Assembly: GCA_030148915.1 (NCBI GenBank)
Contig: JASBSN010000072.1
Location: 1-48,699 of the forward strand
Length of the DNA: 48,699 bases
Reading direction: 5' to 3'
DNA from: Thiogranum sp.
Lineage (GTDB): Bacteria > Pseudomonadota > Gammaproteobacteria > DSM-19610
Shown: one piece after another, positions 505-18,768 of the stretch
Position numbering within the stretch: the first letter of the stretch is position 1
How the letters are laid out: the number at the start of each line of letters is the position of its first letter
The notes under the pieces: generated by a model
Databases searched by the model: none
Seen by the model: the letters and a program-made list of their open reading frames with translations, nothing else
Told to the model about the DNA's origin: nothing
Position numbers and translations under genes: made by a program

Positions 505-4553
<4,049 letters not shown>

Positions 4554-4572
4554 TCTATCGGCAAAGGCCGCC

Positions 4573-6273
4573 TCAGCGCTGCGACTGCAAGGAGAGCATC
4601 CAGTGCTCGCCGTGCCACCGGCTGGAGCGAATCCACGCCGCCAGCGAGGCCGCGGGCAGCGGCGGGCGGATAAAGTAGCCCTGCGCGGTATCGCAACCGA
4701 GCATTTCCAACAGATCCCAGACATCGGTGCTCTCGACTCCTTCGGCGACCACTCTCAGCCCGAGGTTGTGCGCCAGATCGATGGTGGCGCGCACGATCAC
4801 CGCGTCGTTTTCATCCTGGTCCATTTGCGTGACGAAGGACTTGTCGATCTTGATTTCGTCTACCGGCAACTGCTTCAGATAGGCCAGAGAAGAATAACCG
4901 GTGCCGAAATCGTCGATGGAAAGATGAAAACCGATATTCGACAAACGCCGCATCACCCGGCGGGCGGTCATCGGATCGGACATGATGGCGCTTTCGGTAA
5001 TTTCCAGAATCACCGCTGCGGGATCCACCTGATAACGATCGACCAGTTTCTGCACTTGTGCTGGCAAGCCGCGATCCTGCAGACAGTGCACTGATAAGTT
5101 GATACTGATGGACAACTCCAGGCCGCTCAACGCCCATTGTTTGACCTGCAGCAACGCCCGGTTGATCACCCACAGCGTCAGCGGTCGAATGGCGCCGGTC
5201 TGCTCGGCCAGGGAGATGAAGTTTTCCGGGGGAATCAACCCCAATTGCGGATGACTCCAGCGTACCAGCGCCTCGGCGCAGAAAATCCTGCCGGTCTTGA
5301 CGTCCACCATCGGCTGGTATTCCAGCTTCAGTTCGTCGTTGGCCACGGCATCACCGAGTTCGGCCGACAGCCCCAGCCGGTTGATCGCCTGGGTGTCATT
5401 GCTCGGCCGATAATAGGCGAAACCCTGCTGCTTGCGTTTGGCCTCGTACATGGCGATATCGGCCGCGCGCATCAGCAGCGTGGCGTCGGCGCCGTGTTCC
5501 GGATATTGCACCACGCCGATACTGATCGCGGTACGCAGACGCAGATCATCGATGCGTAACTGAGCCTCCATCACCGAGAGGATCTGGCGACAGACGGAAA
5601 GACTGCGCGAGCGATCGGCGCCGGGCAGCAACACGGCGAACTCATCCCCGCCGAGCCGGGCGACGGTGTCGGTGTCGCACAGGACCGATTCCAGACGACG
5701 CCCGACCAACTGCAAGAGACGATCGCCCACCTGGTGGCCGAGCGTGTCGTTGACCTCTTTGAAGCGATCAAGGTCCATGAGAAATAACGCCAGCGGCGTG
5801 TCATGATCACAGGCATGCTGCAAGGCGCTTTCCAGGCGTTCCAACAACAGGGAACGATTGGGCAGACTGGTCAACCCGTCGTGCTGTGCCTGGTATTCCA
5901 ACGCCGAGGTCTCGGCGATGACCTCCTCGCTGAACCGCTGCAAGCGGTTTTCCAGGCGCTGCAGCGCATCACCGCGGGTACGTCGCGGCAGCGCCAGCCC
6001 CATACAGCCGGCATAGTGATCGAGTGTGGCGTGGATGCGCCCCAGGCGATATTTCAACCACAGGGCGACCGCCCCCAACAACAGCATCGGCACCGAGGCG
6101 GCCCACTTGGGCGCCTCGTCGAGAAGCGCTCTCAGGGGTTCGCTGTCACCGCTCAACCACCACCCGACCAGTAACCCGAACGCCGTCAGTAGCAGGATTT
6201 TCACGCTCAGGCGTGCGCCCGGCTGCTTGAACCACCTGCGCGGCAAATCGGCCACGCTGCTCCTTTTTGGCAT
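4573..6273 (-). CDS. Membrane-anchored GGDEF-EAL protein (c-di-GMP turnover)
   Basis: 566 residues. Two hydrophobic segments (about 23-40 and 60-76) anchor the N-terminus with little periplasmic sequence between them. A short linker leads to a GGDEF domain with an intact GGDEF motif at 208-212 and then an EAL domain with intact EAL at 334-336, a downstream DDFGTGYSS loop (from 454) and KIDKSF. Both diguanylate cyclase and phosphodiesterase activities are therefore possible. The inhibitory I-site (RxxD before GGDEF) reads CDTD, so product inhibition at that site is probably lost. No recognisable sensory domain. A GGGGA Shine-Dalgarno precedes the ATG. Function in c-di-GMP metabolism is confident; net activity is unknown. 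Confidence 0.92.
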   Translation of the reverse strand: MPKRSSVADLPRRWFKQPGARLSVKILLLTAFGLLVGWWLSGDSEPLRALLDEAPKWAASVPMLLLGAVALWLKYRLGRIHATLDHYAGCMGLALPRRTRGDALQRLENRLQRFSEEVIAETSALEYQAQHDGLTSLPNRSLLLERLESALQHACDHDTPLALFLMDLDRFKEVNDTLGHQVGDRLLQLVGRRLESVLCDTDTVARLGGDEFAVLLPGADRSRSLSVCRQILSVMEAQLRIDDLRLRTAISIGVVQYPEHGADATLLMRAADIAMYEAKRKQQGFAYYRPSNDTQAINRLGLSAELGDAVANDELKLEYQPMVDVKTGRIFCAEALVRWSHPQLGLIPPENFISLAEQTGAIRPLTLWVINRALLQVKQWALSGLELSISINLSVHCLQDRGLPAQVQKLVDRYQVDPAAVILEITESAIMSDPMTARRVMRRLSNIGFHLSIDDFGTGYSSLAYLKQLPVDEIKIDKSFVTQMDQDENDAVIVRATIDLAHNLGLRVVAEGVESTDVWDLLEMLGCDTAQGYFIRPPLPAASLAAWIRSSRWHGEHWMLSLQSQR

Positions 6274-6556
6274 GTATCATCCCCGTCACCGGGCCGGAGC
6301 GGTACCTGTAACGCGGCCGGCCGGCATGGCGCCACGAACGGGCGGCGCCACGGACGAACCATCCGCTCCGGCTTGATAAGACTCGCTGGAAGCTTCCGGG
6401 CGGAGGCGCCCGGATGGCCTGTTTTTCCTTAGATTGCATCCACTTGCCTGCTATCCTTGAGAACATCGTTGCAAGCGGATAGTAAGGTAACGGCGGCAGG
6501 CGGGGAAAATTTACCGCGACTGTACAGCCGCCGGGCGGCGCAGTAATCTCTAGCCC

Positions 6557-7087
6557 ATGGACAGCCAGGAAAATTTCCGCCAGTTCACCGAGTTGTTGCT
6601 GGGCATTTCCGCCATGGACATCGACTTGCATACCCGCGAAGAAACCCGTCACGCGACGCAACTGATGACGCATCAGTGCGGGCACACCGTGGAAATCTTC
6701 AGCCGCGACCTCGATGCCCCGTTGTACGATCAGAAGGGCTTCCTGCAAGCGCTTGGGGCGCTGTGCCTGCGCAACCGCAAGGCCCGCATACGCATCCTGG
6801 TGCAGGAACCCAAAGCTGCGATCCAGGGTGCTCACCGCCTGATCGAGCTGGCGCGCCGCCTGAGCAGCTCGATCGAACTGCGCCAGCCGCACAGCGATTA
6901 CCGCGCTCACAACGAAGCCTTCCTGATCGCCGATCACTGCGGCCTCATCCAGCGCCCATTGGCGGATCGCTACGCCGGCAGCGCCAATTTCTACCATCCG
7001 ATCGACGCCGGGCGCAAACTCGAGTTTTTCACCGAAGTATGGGAGCGCAGCGAAGCTCACCCCGAGTTCCGACGGCTGTACCTCTGA
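6557..7087 (+). CDS. Conserved hypothetical protein (DUF7931-like)
   Basis: 176 residues, soluble, no signal peptide or membrane segment. The sequence has an EIFSRDLDAPLYD strand-loop, a basic helix rich in Arg around residues 72-80 (LCLRNRKARIRILVQ) and a late AHNEAFLIADHCG segment, an arrangement that recalls a phospholipase-D-like fold without clear HKD motifs. I believe it belongs to the gammaproteobacterial family DUF7931, but function is unknown. No clear Shine-Dalgarno is visible before the ATG. The next gene starts with the base after this stop codon (TGA-ATG), which implies co-transcription with the secretin-N-like protein. Domain assignment is from memory and tentative. Confidence 0.75.
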   Translation: MDSQENFRQFTELLLGISAMDIDLHTREETRHATQLMTHQCGHTVEIFSRDLDAPLYDQKGFLQALGALCLRNRKARIRILVQEPKAAIQGAHRLIELARRLSSSIELRQPHSDYRAHNEAFLIADHCGLIQRPLADRYAGSANFYHPIDAGRKLEFFTEVWERSEAHPEFRRLYL

Positions 7088-7900
7088 ATGAAAACGCTGT
7101 GCGCACTGCTGCTGTGCTTGCTGATAGCGCCCGCCGGGGCCGAGAGCATCAGCACGATGGAACTACACCACCGACCGGCCGCCGAACTGATACCGGCGAT
7201 CAAACCGTTGCTGGGCGCCGGTGACTCGATCACCGGTCAGGGCTTCGTGCTGTTTCTGCGCGCGCCCGCCGCCACCCGTCAACAGGTCGAACAGATAGTC
7301 GCCAGGCTCGACGTGGCCGCGCAGATGCTGCTGATTTCGGTATTCCAGGGCAGCGACCGTGACTTGCGCGCGCTGCACCTAGACACTCAGCCGGTGCAAC
7401 CAGGAGCCGATCCCGGCGTAGTGCGCGGAGACGAGGGGCGCCGCGACGATAACGCCGAGATCTCCCTGGCCGCCACGCGCGGGCGTGTACGGGACAATCC
7501 AGTGCACCGCTTGCGCGTCACGGAAGGGCAACCGGGCTTCATCGAAACCGGACGTTCCATCCCCTACTTTTCCGCCATCCCCTGGCAGGCGCCGGGCGCT
7601 GTTATCGGCGGCCTCGAGTACAAAGACGCCACCACCGGCTTCTATGTATTAGCGCGCCGCCACGGCGATCAGGTTACTATGCAGATCAGTCCATTCAAAC
7701 AGTCGTTGGACCCGCAGCGCGCCGATGCGCTCACCACCGAGCGGGCGCACACCACCCTCACCGGGCGGCTGGGTGCATGGCTGGTGCTCGGCGGCAGCAT
7801 GGAGCAAACCCGGGAGTCGGCAAGCGCTATCGGCGCTTACCATTCGACCGACAGCCGCAGCAGTGCAAATATCTGGATCAAGGCCGAGCCGCTGGAGTGA
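7088..7900 (+). CDS. Exported secretin N-domain (NolW-like) protein
   Basis: 270 residues. A signal peptide (KTLCALLLCLLIAPAGAES) is followed by a short repeat domain of the kind found at the N-terminus of secretins: MELHHRPAAELIPAIKPLL, then a V/I-rich strand and VEQIVARLDV. The rest (about 90-270) is beta-rich, with VTEGQPGFIETGRSIPYF resembling the linker into a secretin pore, but it is far too short for a complete secretin barrel. It is probably a periplasmic or outer-membrane-associated protein. It starts immediately after the upstream stop and is probably translationally coupled to it. There is no type II, III or IV secretion cluster in the window, so its partner is unknown. Confidence 0.75.
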   Translation: MKTLCALLLCLLIAPAGAESISTMELHHRPAAELIPAIKPLLGAGDSITGQGFVLFLRAPAATRQQVEQIVARLDVAAQMLLISVFQGSDRDLRALHLDTQPVQPGADPGVVRGDEGRRDDNAEISLAATRGRVRDNPVHRLRVTEGQPGFIETGRSIPYFSAIPWQAPGAVIGGLEYKDATTGFYVLARRHGDQVTMQISPFKQSLDPQRADALTTERAHTTLTGRLGAWLVLGGSMEQTRESASAIGAYHSTDSRSSANIWIKAEPLE

Positions 7901-7974
7901 ACGTACCCGGGTGCGGCGAGGGCTCAGCCGGACAATAATTACTACACGGTAACTTCATTAGGAGAGCGTCGCTC

Positions 7975-8907
7975 ATGTTCGGTTTTCAGGAATTCGTTAT
8001 TCTCATTCTGGTGCTGGCGGTGGCACTGGTCATCATGGGCGTCAAATCGATACCCCAGGGGATGGAATACACCGTTGAGCGCTTCGGGCGCTACACCCGC
8101 ACGCTGCGCCCGGGCCTGAACCTGATCGCCCCCGTGGTCGATCGCATCGGCGCCAGGCTGAACATGATGGAGCGCGTCATGGACGTACCCTCGCAGGAAG
8201 TCATCACCCGCGACAACGCCATGGTCACGGTCGACGGCGTGGTGTTCTTTCAAGTGCTGGACGCCGCCAAAGCCGCCTACGAAGTCAGTCAGCTGGAACT
8301 TGCGATTCTCAACCTGACCATGACCAATGTGCGTACCGTCATGGGCTCCATGGACCTCGACGAGTTGCTCTCGCAGCGCGACAAAATTAACGCCCAACTG
8401 CTGCACGTGGTCGACGACGCCACCACTCCCTGGGGCGTAAAAGTCACACGCATCGAAATCAAGGACATCACCCCGCCGCGCGATCTGATCGACGCTATGG
8501 GCCGGCAGATGAAGGCCGAACGGGAAAAGCGCGCCAATATTCTCGAAGCCGAGGGCTTCCGGCAGGCCGAAATTCTCAAAGCCGAAGGCGAAAAGCAGTC
8601 GGCGATTCTCAGTGCCGAAGGCAAACGCCAGGCGGCGTTCCTGGAAGCGGAAGCCCGCGAACGGCAGGCCCAAGCCGAAGCCAAGGCCACCGAAATGGTC
8701 TCTCAGGCCATCGCCAAGGGCGACATCAACGCCGTCAACTACTTTGTCGCCACGAAATACATCGAATCGCTGCAGGCGATCGCCCTGTCACCCAACGAGA
8801 AACTGGTGTTGATGCCGCTGGAAGCCTCCAGCGTCATCGGCGCGCTCGGCGGTATCACCGAACTTACTAAAGACGCACTGAGCCGCCAACAAGGCGCTCA
8901 TGCATGA
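7975..8907 (+). CDS. qmcA: SPFH/band-7 protein, QmcA (stomatin-like)
   Basis: 310 residues. One N-terminal membrane helix (about 6-24, FVILILVLAVALVIMG) is followed by the SPFH/band-7 domain (VERFGRYTRTLRPGLN, then VFFQVLDAAKAAYEV) and an Ala/Glu-rich coiled coil (about 180-235) with repeated AEGEKQ/AEGKRQ units, which drives oligomerisation. QmcA-type proteins form large membrane-bound assemblies and are linked to membrane quality control with FtsH in E. coli. The start has a good Shine-Dalgarno (TTAGGAGAGCG). It overlaps the NfeD gene by 4 bp (ATGA), the standard stomatin/NfeD operon. Confidence 0.93.
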   Translation: MFGFQEFVILILVLAVALVIMGVKSIPQGMEYTVERFGRYTRTLRPGLNLIAPVVDRIGARLNMMERVMDVPSQEVITRDNAMVTVDGVVFFQVLDAAKAAYEVSQLELAILNLTMTNVRTVMGSMDLDELLSQRDKINAQLLHVVDDATTPWGVKVTRIEIKDITPPRDLIDAMGRQMKAEREKRANILEAEGFRQAEILKAEGEKQSAILSAEGKRQAAFLEAEARERQAQAEAKATEMVSQAIAKGDINAVNYFVATKYIESLQAIALSPNEKLVLMPLEASSVIGALGGITELTKDALSRQQGAHA

Positions 8908-18230: not shown

Positions 18231-18260
18231 GGTCGAACTACACGCGCCGTTTCGAGTAGC

Positions 18261-18305
18261 GGGGTCGGTGACAACTGAGTACCTGCGCAGTTTGTCACCG
18301 ACCCC
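18261..18305. repeat. REP-like palindrome (GGGGTCGGTGACA...)
   Basis: GGGGTCGGTGACAACTG and CAGTTTGTCACCGACCCC form a nearly perfect 17-bp stem (one extra base) around a loop of about 10 nt. It sits between two convergent genes (ends 18230 and 18331). Palindromes starting GGGGTC and ending GACCCC are typical of REP sequences mobilised by RAYT transposases in gammaproteobacteria. It could also act as a bidirectional terminator or mRNA stabiliser; there is no U-run. Confidence 0.65.
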
Positions 18306-18330
18306 GGTGTGCTGATCGGGTCGACAGCTG

Positions 18331-18768
18331 TTATTTAGAACCGCCGCACTTGCCTTCACCGGCTTTACCCGCTTTGCCGGATTTCATCGATTCCATCATG
18401 TTCATCATCTGCTTCATGTGCGCCTCGCCCTCTGCTTTATCGATCACACCGTCAGCATTCTGATCCATGCTTTTAAACATGCCTTCCTGACCCTTCATAT
18501 ACTCGCTTTTGGTAACTTTGCCATCACCGTTGGCGTCCATGCGAGACAGGCCGCACATGCCCTCTCCGCCTTTGCCGGCGCCGCACTTGCCTTCGCCACA
18601 CTTCCCTTCGCCCCCTTTGCTTTCCGCCAGGACCATATAACCGCTGGAAAGGGACTGCATGCCGAAAGGATTGTCGGCGGCACTGGCTAAGGGGATATTG
18701 GCCAGGCTTACCGTGAACACAGCGCCCAAGGCTGCCGTTAAAGAGTTGCTAGCCGGTTTCTTTGACAT
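18331..18768 (-). CDS. HvfA-like modified-cysteine metallophore precursor with two EF-hands
   Basis: 145 residues. A signal peptide (to about residue 31, PLASAADNPF) is followed by the HvfA-type opening NPFGMQSLSSGYMVLAE and a pentad repeat: EGKCG (54-58), EGKCG (59-63), AGKGG (64-68) and EGMCG (69-73). Next come two EF-hand loops, DANGDGKVTKSE (78-89) and DQNADGVIDKAE (102-113), a Met-rich helix (MKQMMNMMESMK) and a final EGKCG (138-142). Cysteines are 57, 62, 72 and 141. In known HvfA systems EGKCG cysteines are converted to oxazolone/thioamide by the MNIO enzyme HvfB (DUF692) with HvfC (DUF2063); no such genes adjoin it. Shine-Dalgarno AGGATGAG precedes the ATG. A plain EF-hand Ca-binding protein is the alternative. 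Confidence 0.75.
   Translation of the reverse strand: MSKKPASNSLTAALGAVFTVSLANIPLASAADNPFGMQSLSSGYMVLAESKGGEGKCGEGKCGAGKGGEGMCGLSRMDANGDGKVTKSEYMKGQEGMFKSMDQNADGVIDKAEGEAHMKQMMNMMESMKSGKAGKAGEGKCGGSK

Follow-up and report, generated by a model that had tools for sequence, protein, structure and literature searches.

The window, the whole stretch of DNA analysed here (48,699 nucleotides), is the entire contig C114 of the Thiogranum genome G000 (3.2 Mb, 135 contigs). On its minus strand an open reading frame with an ATG start codon runs from position 18768 down to 18331 and encodes a protein of 145 residues, with the following parts.

18331..18768, minus strand: coding sequence, 145 aa, EfhP-like / Buf_EGKCG|EF-hand precursor (open reading frame, Pfam and NCBIfam profiles, orthologues)
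18676..18768, minus strand: residues 1-31, putative Sec-type signal peptide, probably also the RiPP leader (homology to HvfA leaders; leader role as in PMC13419390)
18637..18672, minus strand: residues 33-44, NPFGMQSLSSGY, conserved HvfA-type motif 3' of the signal peptide (leader alignments)
18550..18609, minus strand: residues 54-73, block EGKCG EGKCG AGKGG EGMCG with Cys57, Cys62 and Cys72 (NF050137 and script indexing)
18502..18537, minus strand: residues 78-89, EF-hand loop 1, DANGDGKVTKSE (EF-hand_5 and script)
18430..18465, minus strand: residues 102-113, EF-hand loop 2, DQNADGVIDKAE (EF-hand_5 and script)
18373..18420, minus strand: residues 117-132, Met-rich helix 3' of EF hand 2 (orthologue alignment, structure model)
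18343..18357, minus strand: residues 138-142, C-terminal EGKCG with Cys141 (orthologue alignment and script)

Indexing of the protein by script placed the EGKCG units at residues 54-58, 59-63 and 138-142, the variants AGKGG and EGMCG at 64-68 and 69-73, respectively, and the cysteines at positions 57, 62, 72 and 141. The three units and two variants that an earlier, sequence-only reading had named stand exactly where it put them, and the two EF hands it mentioned are there; its coordinates and motifs for the reading frame were also right, and the strand, which it left unstated, is the minus one. Both EF-hand loops (starting at residues 78 and 102) carry, judging from their residues, a canonical Ca2+-loop pattern. 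The Pfam profile EF-hand_5 matched two stretches of the protein with 38 bits (cut-off 25.9, E 9e-10) and the NCBIfam profile NF050137 'HvfA family' scored 21.6 bits (cut-off 19.5); the equivalog NF050188, which stands for HvfA proper, stayed below its cut-off (12.8 bits vs 95). The sequence of the N-terminus and its homology to HvfA leaders are consistent with a signal peptide or membrane helix. The earlier proposal of an HvfA-type leader and repeats, with EF hands set within the precursor, is supported. The model from structure prediction is of low confidence, with a mean pLDDT of 52.6 (58-78 in the EF region). Nothing speaks for a lanthanide binder, since the PDB sequence search matched generic EF-hand proteins and lanmodulin only, over the EF hands; XopAW and lanmodulin identities were likewise rejected, with NCBIfam scores far under cut-off. 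Immediately 3' of the gene, a 47-base inverted repeat (CGGGGTCGGTGACAA...TTGTCACCGACCCCG, window positions 18260-18306) may be a terminator or a repeat element.

By its sequence the precursor is a member of the already described EfhP / Buf_EGKCG|EF-hand family. EfhP (PA4107) of P. aeruginosa holds two EF hands, and its gene shares an operon with DUF692 and DUF2063; the EfhP homologue of P. fluorescens Pf0-1 lies outside any such operon (PMC4053335). Binding of Ca2+ by EfhP was measured at 13.7 uM (PMC9132961), a 2024 paper pointed out its EGKCG repeats (PMC11559002), and its authors have proposed a dual sensing of Ca2+ and Fe (PMC11559002). Antoine et al. 2025 (PMC12452194) already proposed for such RiPPs that precursors may stand alone and be modified by enzymes encoded elsewhere in the genome. 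The combination of EGKCG with two EF hands, taken earlier for a new variant, is thus published, stand-alone copies included (PMC4053335, PMC11559002, PMC12452194). Our protein shares with EfhP a probable N-terminal export or membrane segment, EGKCG repeats and two canonical EF hands, in a family whose homologues are operonic or unlinked; it differs in its host, a Thiogranum-like gammaproteobacterium, in its HvfA-like NPFGMxxLSSGY leader, in having one more EGKCG beyond the EF hands and in its stand-alone location near metH and ychJ. With Buf_EGKCG|EF-hand_5 (PMC12452194) it has in common a probable signal peptide or membrane helix, two EF-hand_5 domains and a short EGKCG domain without 17-residue repeats, but that architecture was described with C-terminally fused EF hands, whereas the window precursor and many homologues add EGKCG afterwards. 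The precursors of HvfA/oxazolin, fontiphorin and gonophorin resemble it in its putative signal peptide/leader and EGKCG repeats, with MNIO, DUF2063 and DoxX present in the genome; unlike it, they have no EF hands and their genes lie in an operon.

The local 'orphan' character claimed for the gene was borne out by a profile search: no DUF692 or DUF2063 gene adjoins it, nor is there one anywhere on the 48.7-kb contig. The genome encodes four MNIO (DUF692) and four DUF2063 genes, paired on contigs C2, C27, C80 and C118 (MNIO and DUF2063 were named by profiles, HvfA repeats by NF050137 and the other genes of these clusters by sequence reading). Since these four pairs exist, the genome is not devoid of DUF692 genes, and the distant modification enzyme suggested earlier is plausible. 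The cluster on C2 comprises an HvfA-like precursor, MNIO, DUF2063, DoxX and a P-type ATPase. Its precursor shows 51-52% identity to the 145-residue protein where aligned, mainly in the leader and first repeats, and both carry the leader stretch NPFGMxxLSSGYMV; a matching enzyme pair is present in the genome. The C118 cluster contains an ECF sigma factor, a probable zinc-type anti-sigma factor, an HvfA-like precursor, MNIO and DUF2063, and the pair on C27 is accompanied by a DUF2282-like precursor. The MNIO of C118 seems to be split by a frameshift (L018 ~2956-3850, minus strand), from either a pseudogene or an assembly error. On C80 (L017 ~4250-8120), the neighbours of MNIO and DUF2063 are a mercuric-reductase-like gene and one for a MerC-like membrane protein whose Cys-rich tail resembles a bufferin.

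A stand-alone EF-hand/HvfA gene was found in 10 of 16 congeners (named records: Thiogranum sp., Thiohalobacter sp. and unclassified gammaproteobacteria), and the nine well-covered orthologues that were aligned are 43 to ~70% identical to the precursor. No MNIO was seen near these genes in any fetched locus, several of the loci being short contigs. For eight of the congeners that carry the stand-alone gene, the sole MNIO found adjoins an HvfA-like precursor; in one of them, the single-contig genome G004, it lies beside HvfA and 0.56 Mb from the EF-hand gene. The location is partly syntenic in three genomes, with ychJ nearby in G004 and the window and metH in G005 and the window. The unlinked state of the EF-hand precursor is thus real and recurrent in the genus. 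Overall pN/pS across the nine orthologues was ~0.28 (signal peptide 0.40, N-terminal KCG block 0.25, EF hands 0.21, tail 0.24), values that are rough since synonymous sites are close to saturation; leader, KCG blocks and EF hands are under purifying selection. The two family profiles, the congener orthologues and this ratio make the architecture more than a product of chance. Nearly all orthologues place the EF hands between two KCG blocks, Cys57 and Cys72 are invariant across ten orthologues, and Met118, Met121 and Met125 are nearly invariant. Most congeners have a tandem, KEGKCGEGKCGG, as their C-terminal block, and from it the window copy has lost one Cys (KAGKAGEGKCGG); G005 and G017 have lost either LSSGY from the leader or the bulk of the N-terminal repeats.

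The stand-alone genes also stand apart in their upstream regions. In most of the operons read in the genus, hvfA follows an ECF-type promoter-like box, GGAAACTTT-N13-GGTCGTA or a near variant of it. The window's genome has one exact match (C2:71373-71401; L016 ~4374-4402), and the operon-borne EF-hand precursor of L066 is preceded by such a box with two mismatches. The reading of this box would agree with the situation in H. influenzae, where the ECF sigma factor RpoE2 controls the corresponding DoxX/UPF0276/DUF2063 operon (PMC7907618). In contrast to the HvfA-type genes of many genus members, the window gene has no box: the 300 bases upstream of each stand-alone gene held nothing beyond shuffled sequence, and alignment of these upstream regions gave no conserved motif except the ribosome-binding site. 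Its expression may therefore not coincide with that of the enzymes. That the gene is repeatedly unlinked in the genus, evolves under purifying selection and lacks the ECF-type box is a small addition to what has been published.

Outside the genus the same architecture lies directly 5' of MNIO in several families (L066, L100, L144, L145, L148, L149, L154), Lysobacter pythonis being among the species, and elsewhere directly before MNIO and DUF2063. In Pseudomonas the precursor directly precedes MNIO in 9 of 30 loci; the remaining ones showed no MNIO within ~1.5 kb, nor within up to 8 kb in the larger loci. Where the copy is unlinked in Pseudomonas and Nitrosospira, the genome still encodes MNIO; no HvfA-type precursor was seen beside it, and one of these genomes has a DUF2282-like precursor there. 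MNIO occurs in 26 of 26 tested fusion-bearing genomes, and the class as a whole gives 222 of 369; this co-occurrence is only weakly informative, because relatives are non-independent, linked copies are trivial and a base rate of 60% applies. Two MNIO-less genomes (G032, G044) gave as matches EF-hand proteins that lack KCG; since most other matches of this kind came from genomes with MNIO, they do not serve as a co-occurrence test. In Nitrosospira sp. Nsp2 (L071 8001-8375) a homologue with HvfA-like leader and EF hands has lost nearly all EGKCG cysteines.

The reading we favour, somewhat better than evenly, is that of an exported EfhP-like precursor that would be modified in trans by the C2 enzymes and act as a periplasmic Cu(I)/Ca2+ binder. 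The HvfA-like signal peptide/leader of this precursor would be recognised in the cytoplasm by the DUF2063-RRE partner and the MNIO of the C2 hvf operon; HvfBC prefers full-length HvfA including the signal peptide (PMC13419390). These enzymes would oxidise EGKCG cysteines to 5-thiooxazoles (-4 Da per Cys), the product to which the oxazolone/thioamide chemistry named earlier has since been reassigned (PMC12668002, PMC13419390). In related bacteria such cysteine motifs become copper-binding groups. The tandem at residues 54-63 would be more likely to be modified than the lone EGKCG at the C-terminus, because FonBC modified a two-repeat substrate and left a one-repeat substrate unmodified (PMC12668002). 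Export by Sec and cleavage near ASA/ADNPF would deliver a copper(I)-binding protein to the periplasm, where the EF-hand pair may bind Ca2+ and couple metal buffering or sensing to calcium. Work on EfhP, seen as a calcium sensor, and on HvfA, seen as a copper RiPP, has run in largely separate literatures, and trans modification of unlinked precursors is a point left open by the published survey. For it this genus offers a clean setting, in a single-contig genome where the one MNIO and the EF-hand precursor gene lie apart.

A less probable reading, though still a serious one, takes the protein for an EfhP-like periplasmic calcium sensor, possibly of iron too, whose cysteines stay unmodified as thiols or disulphides behind an inherited HvfA-like front that is no longer processed. 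The absence of linked enzymes and of the shared ECF box points this way, as do the Nitrosospira homologue that keeps its EF hands with nearly all Cys gone, the fewer cysteines of the window copy and the dual Ca2+/Fe sensing proposed for EfhP (PMC11559002). It is opposed by the purifying selection still acting on KCG blocks and leader, the invariance of Cys57 and Cys72, and the MNIO/DUF2063 enzymes encoded in the genome. Modification in trans also has a special case, which we regard as doubtful: a calcium-gated copper buffer in which Ca2+ at the EF pair would draw the thiooxazole blocks of both termini, along with the Met-rich helix, into a single site for Cu(I). The position of the EF hands between two KCG blocks and the near invariance of Met118/121/125 would fit, but the conserved Met may be merely the core of an EF-hand helix, the structure model is of low confidence, and the C-terminal block of the window copy has one Cys. 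The most far-reaching reading, likewise doubtful, is a lineage-wide, stably unlinked precursor that would be trans-modified by the hvf enzymes while its own expression lay outside the ECF regulon of those enzymes, with Ca2+ at the EF hands controlling Cu(I) at flanking thiooxazoles. A decaying, non-functional remnant of a precursor gene split from its operon, suggested by the stand-alone location and partial loss of cysteines, is very unlikely given the intact reading frame, the low pN/pS over nine orthologues and the partly syntenic site in three genomes.

A further fusion was seen from L062 6972 onward (G010 C31): it joins an HvfA-like NPF leader and CGG motifs to a cytochrome c-like domain (CTQCH), and a gene resembling a copper P-type ATPase lies nearby.
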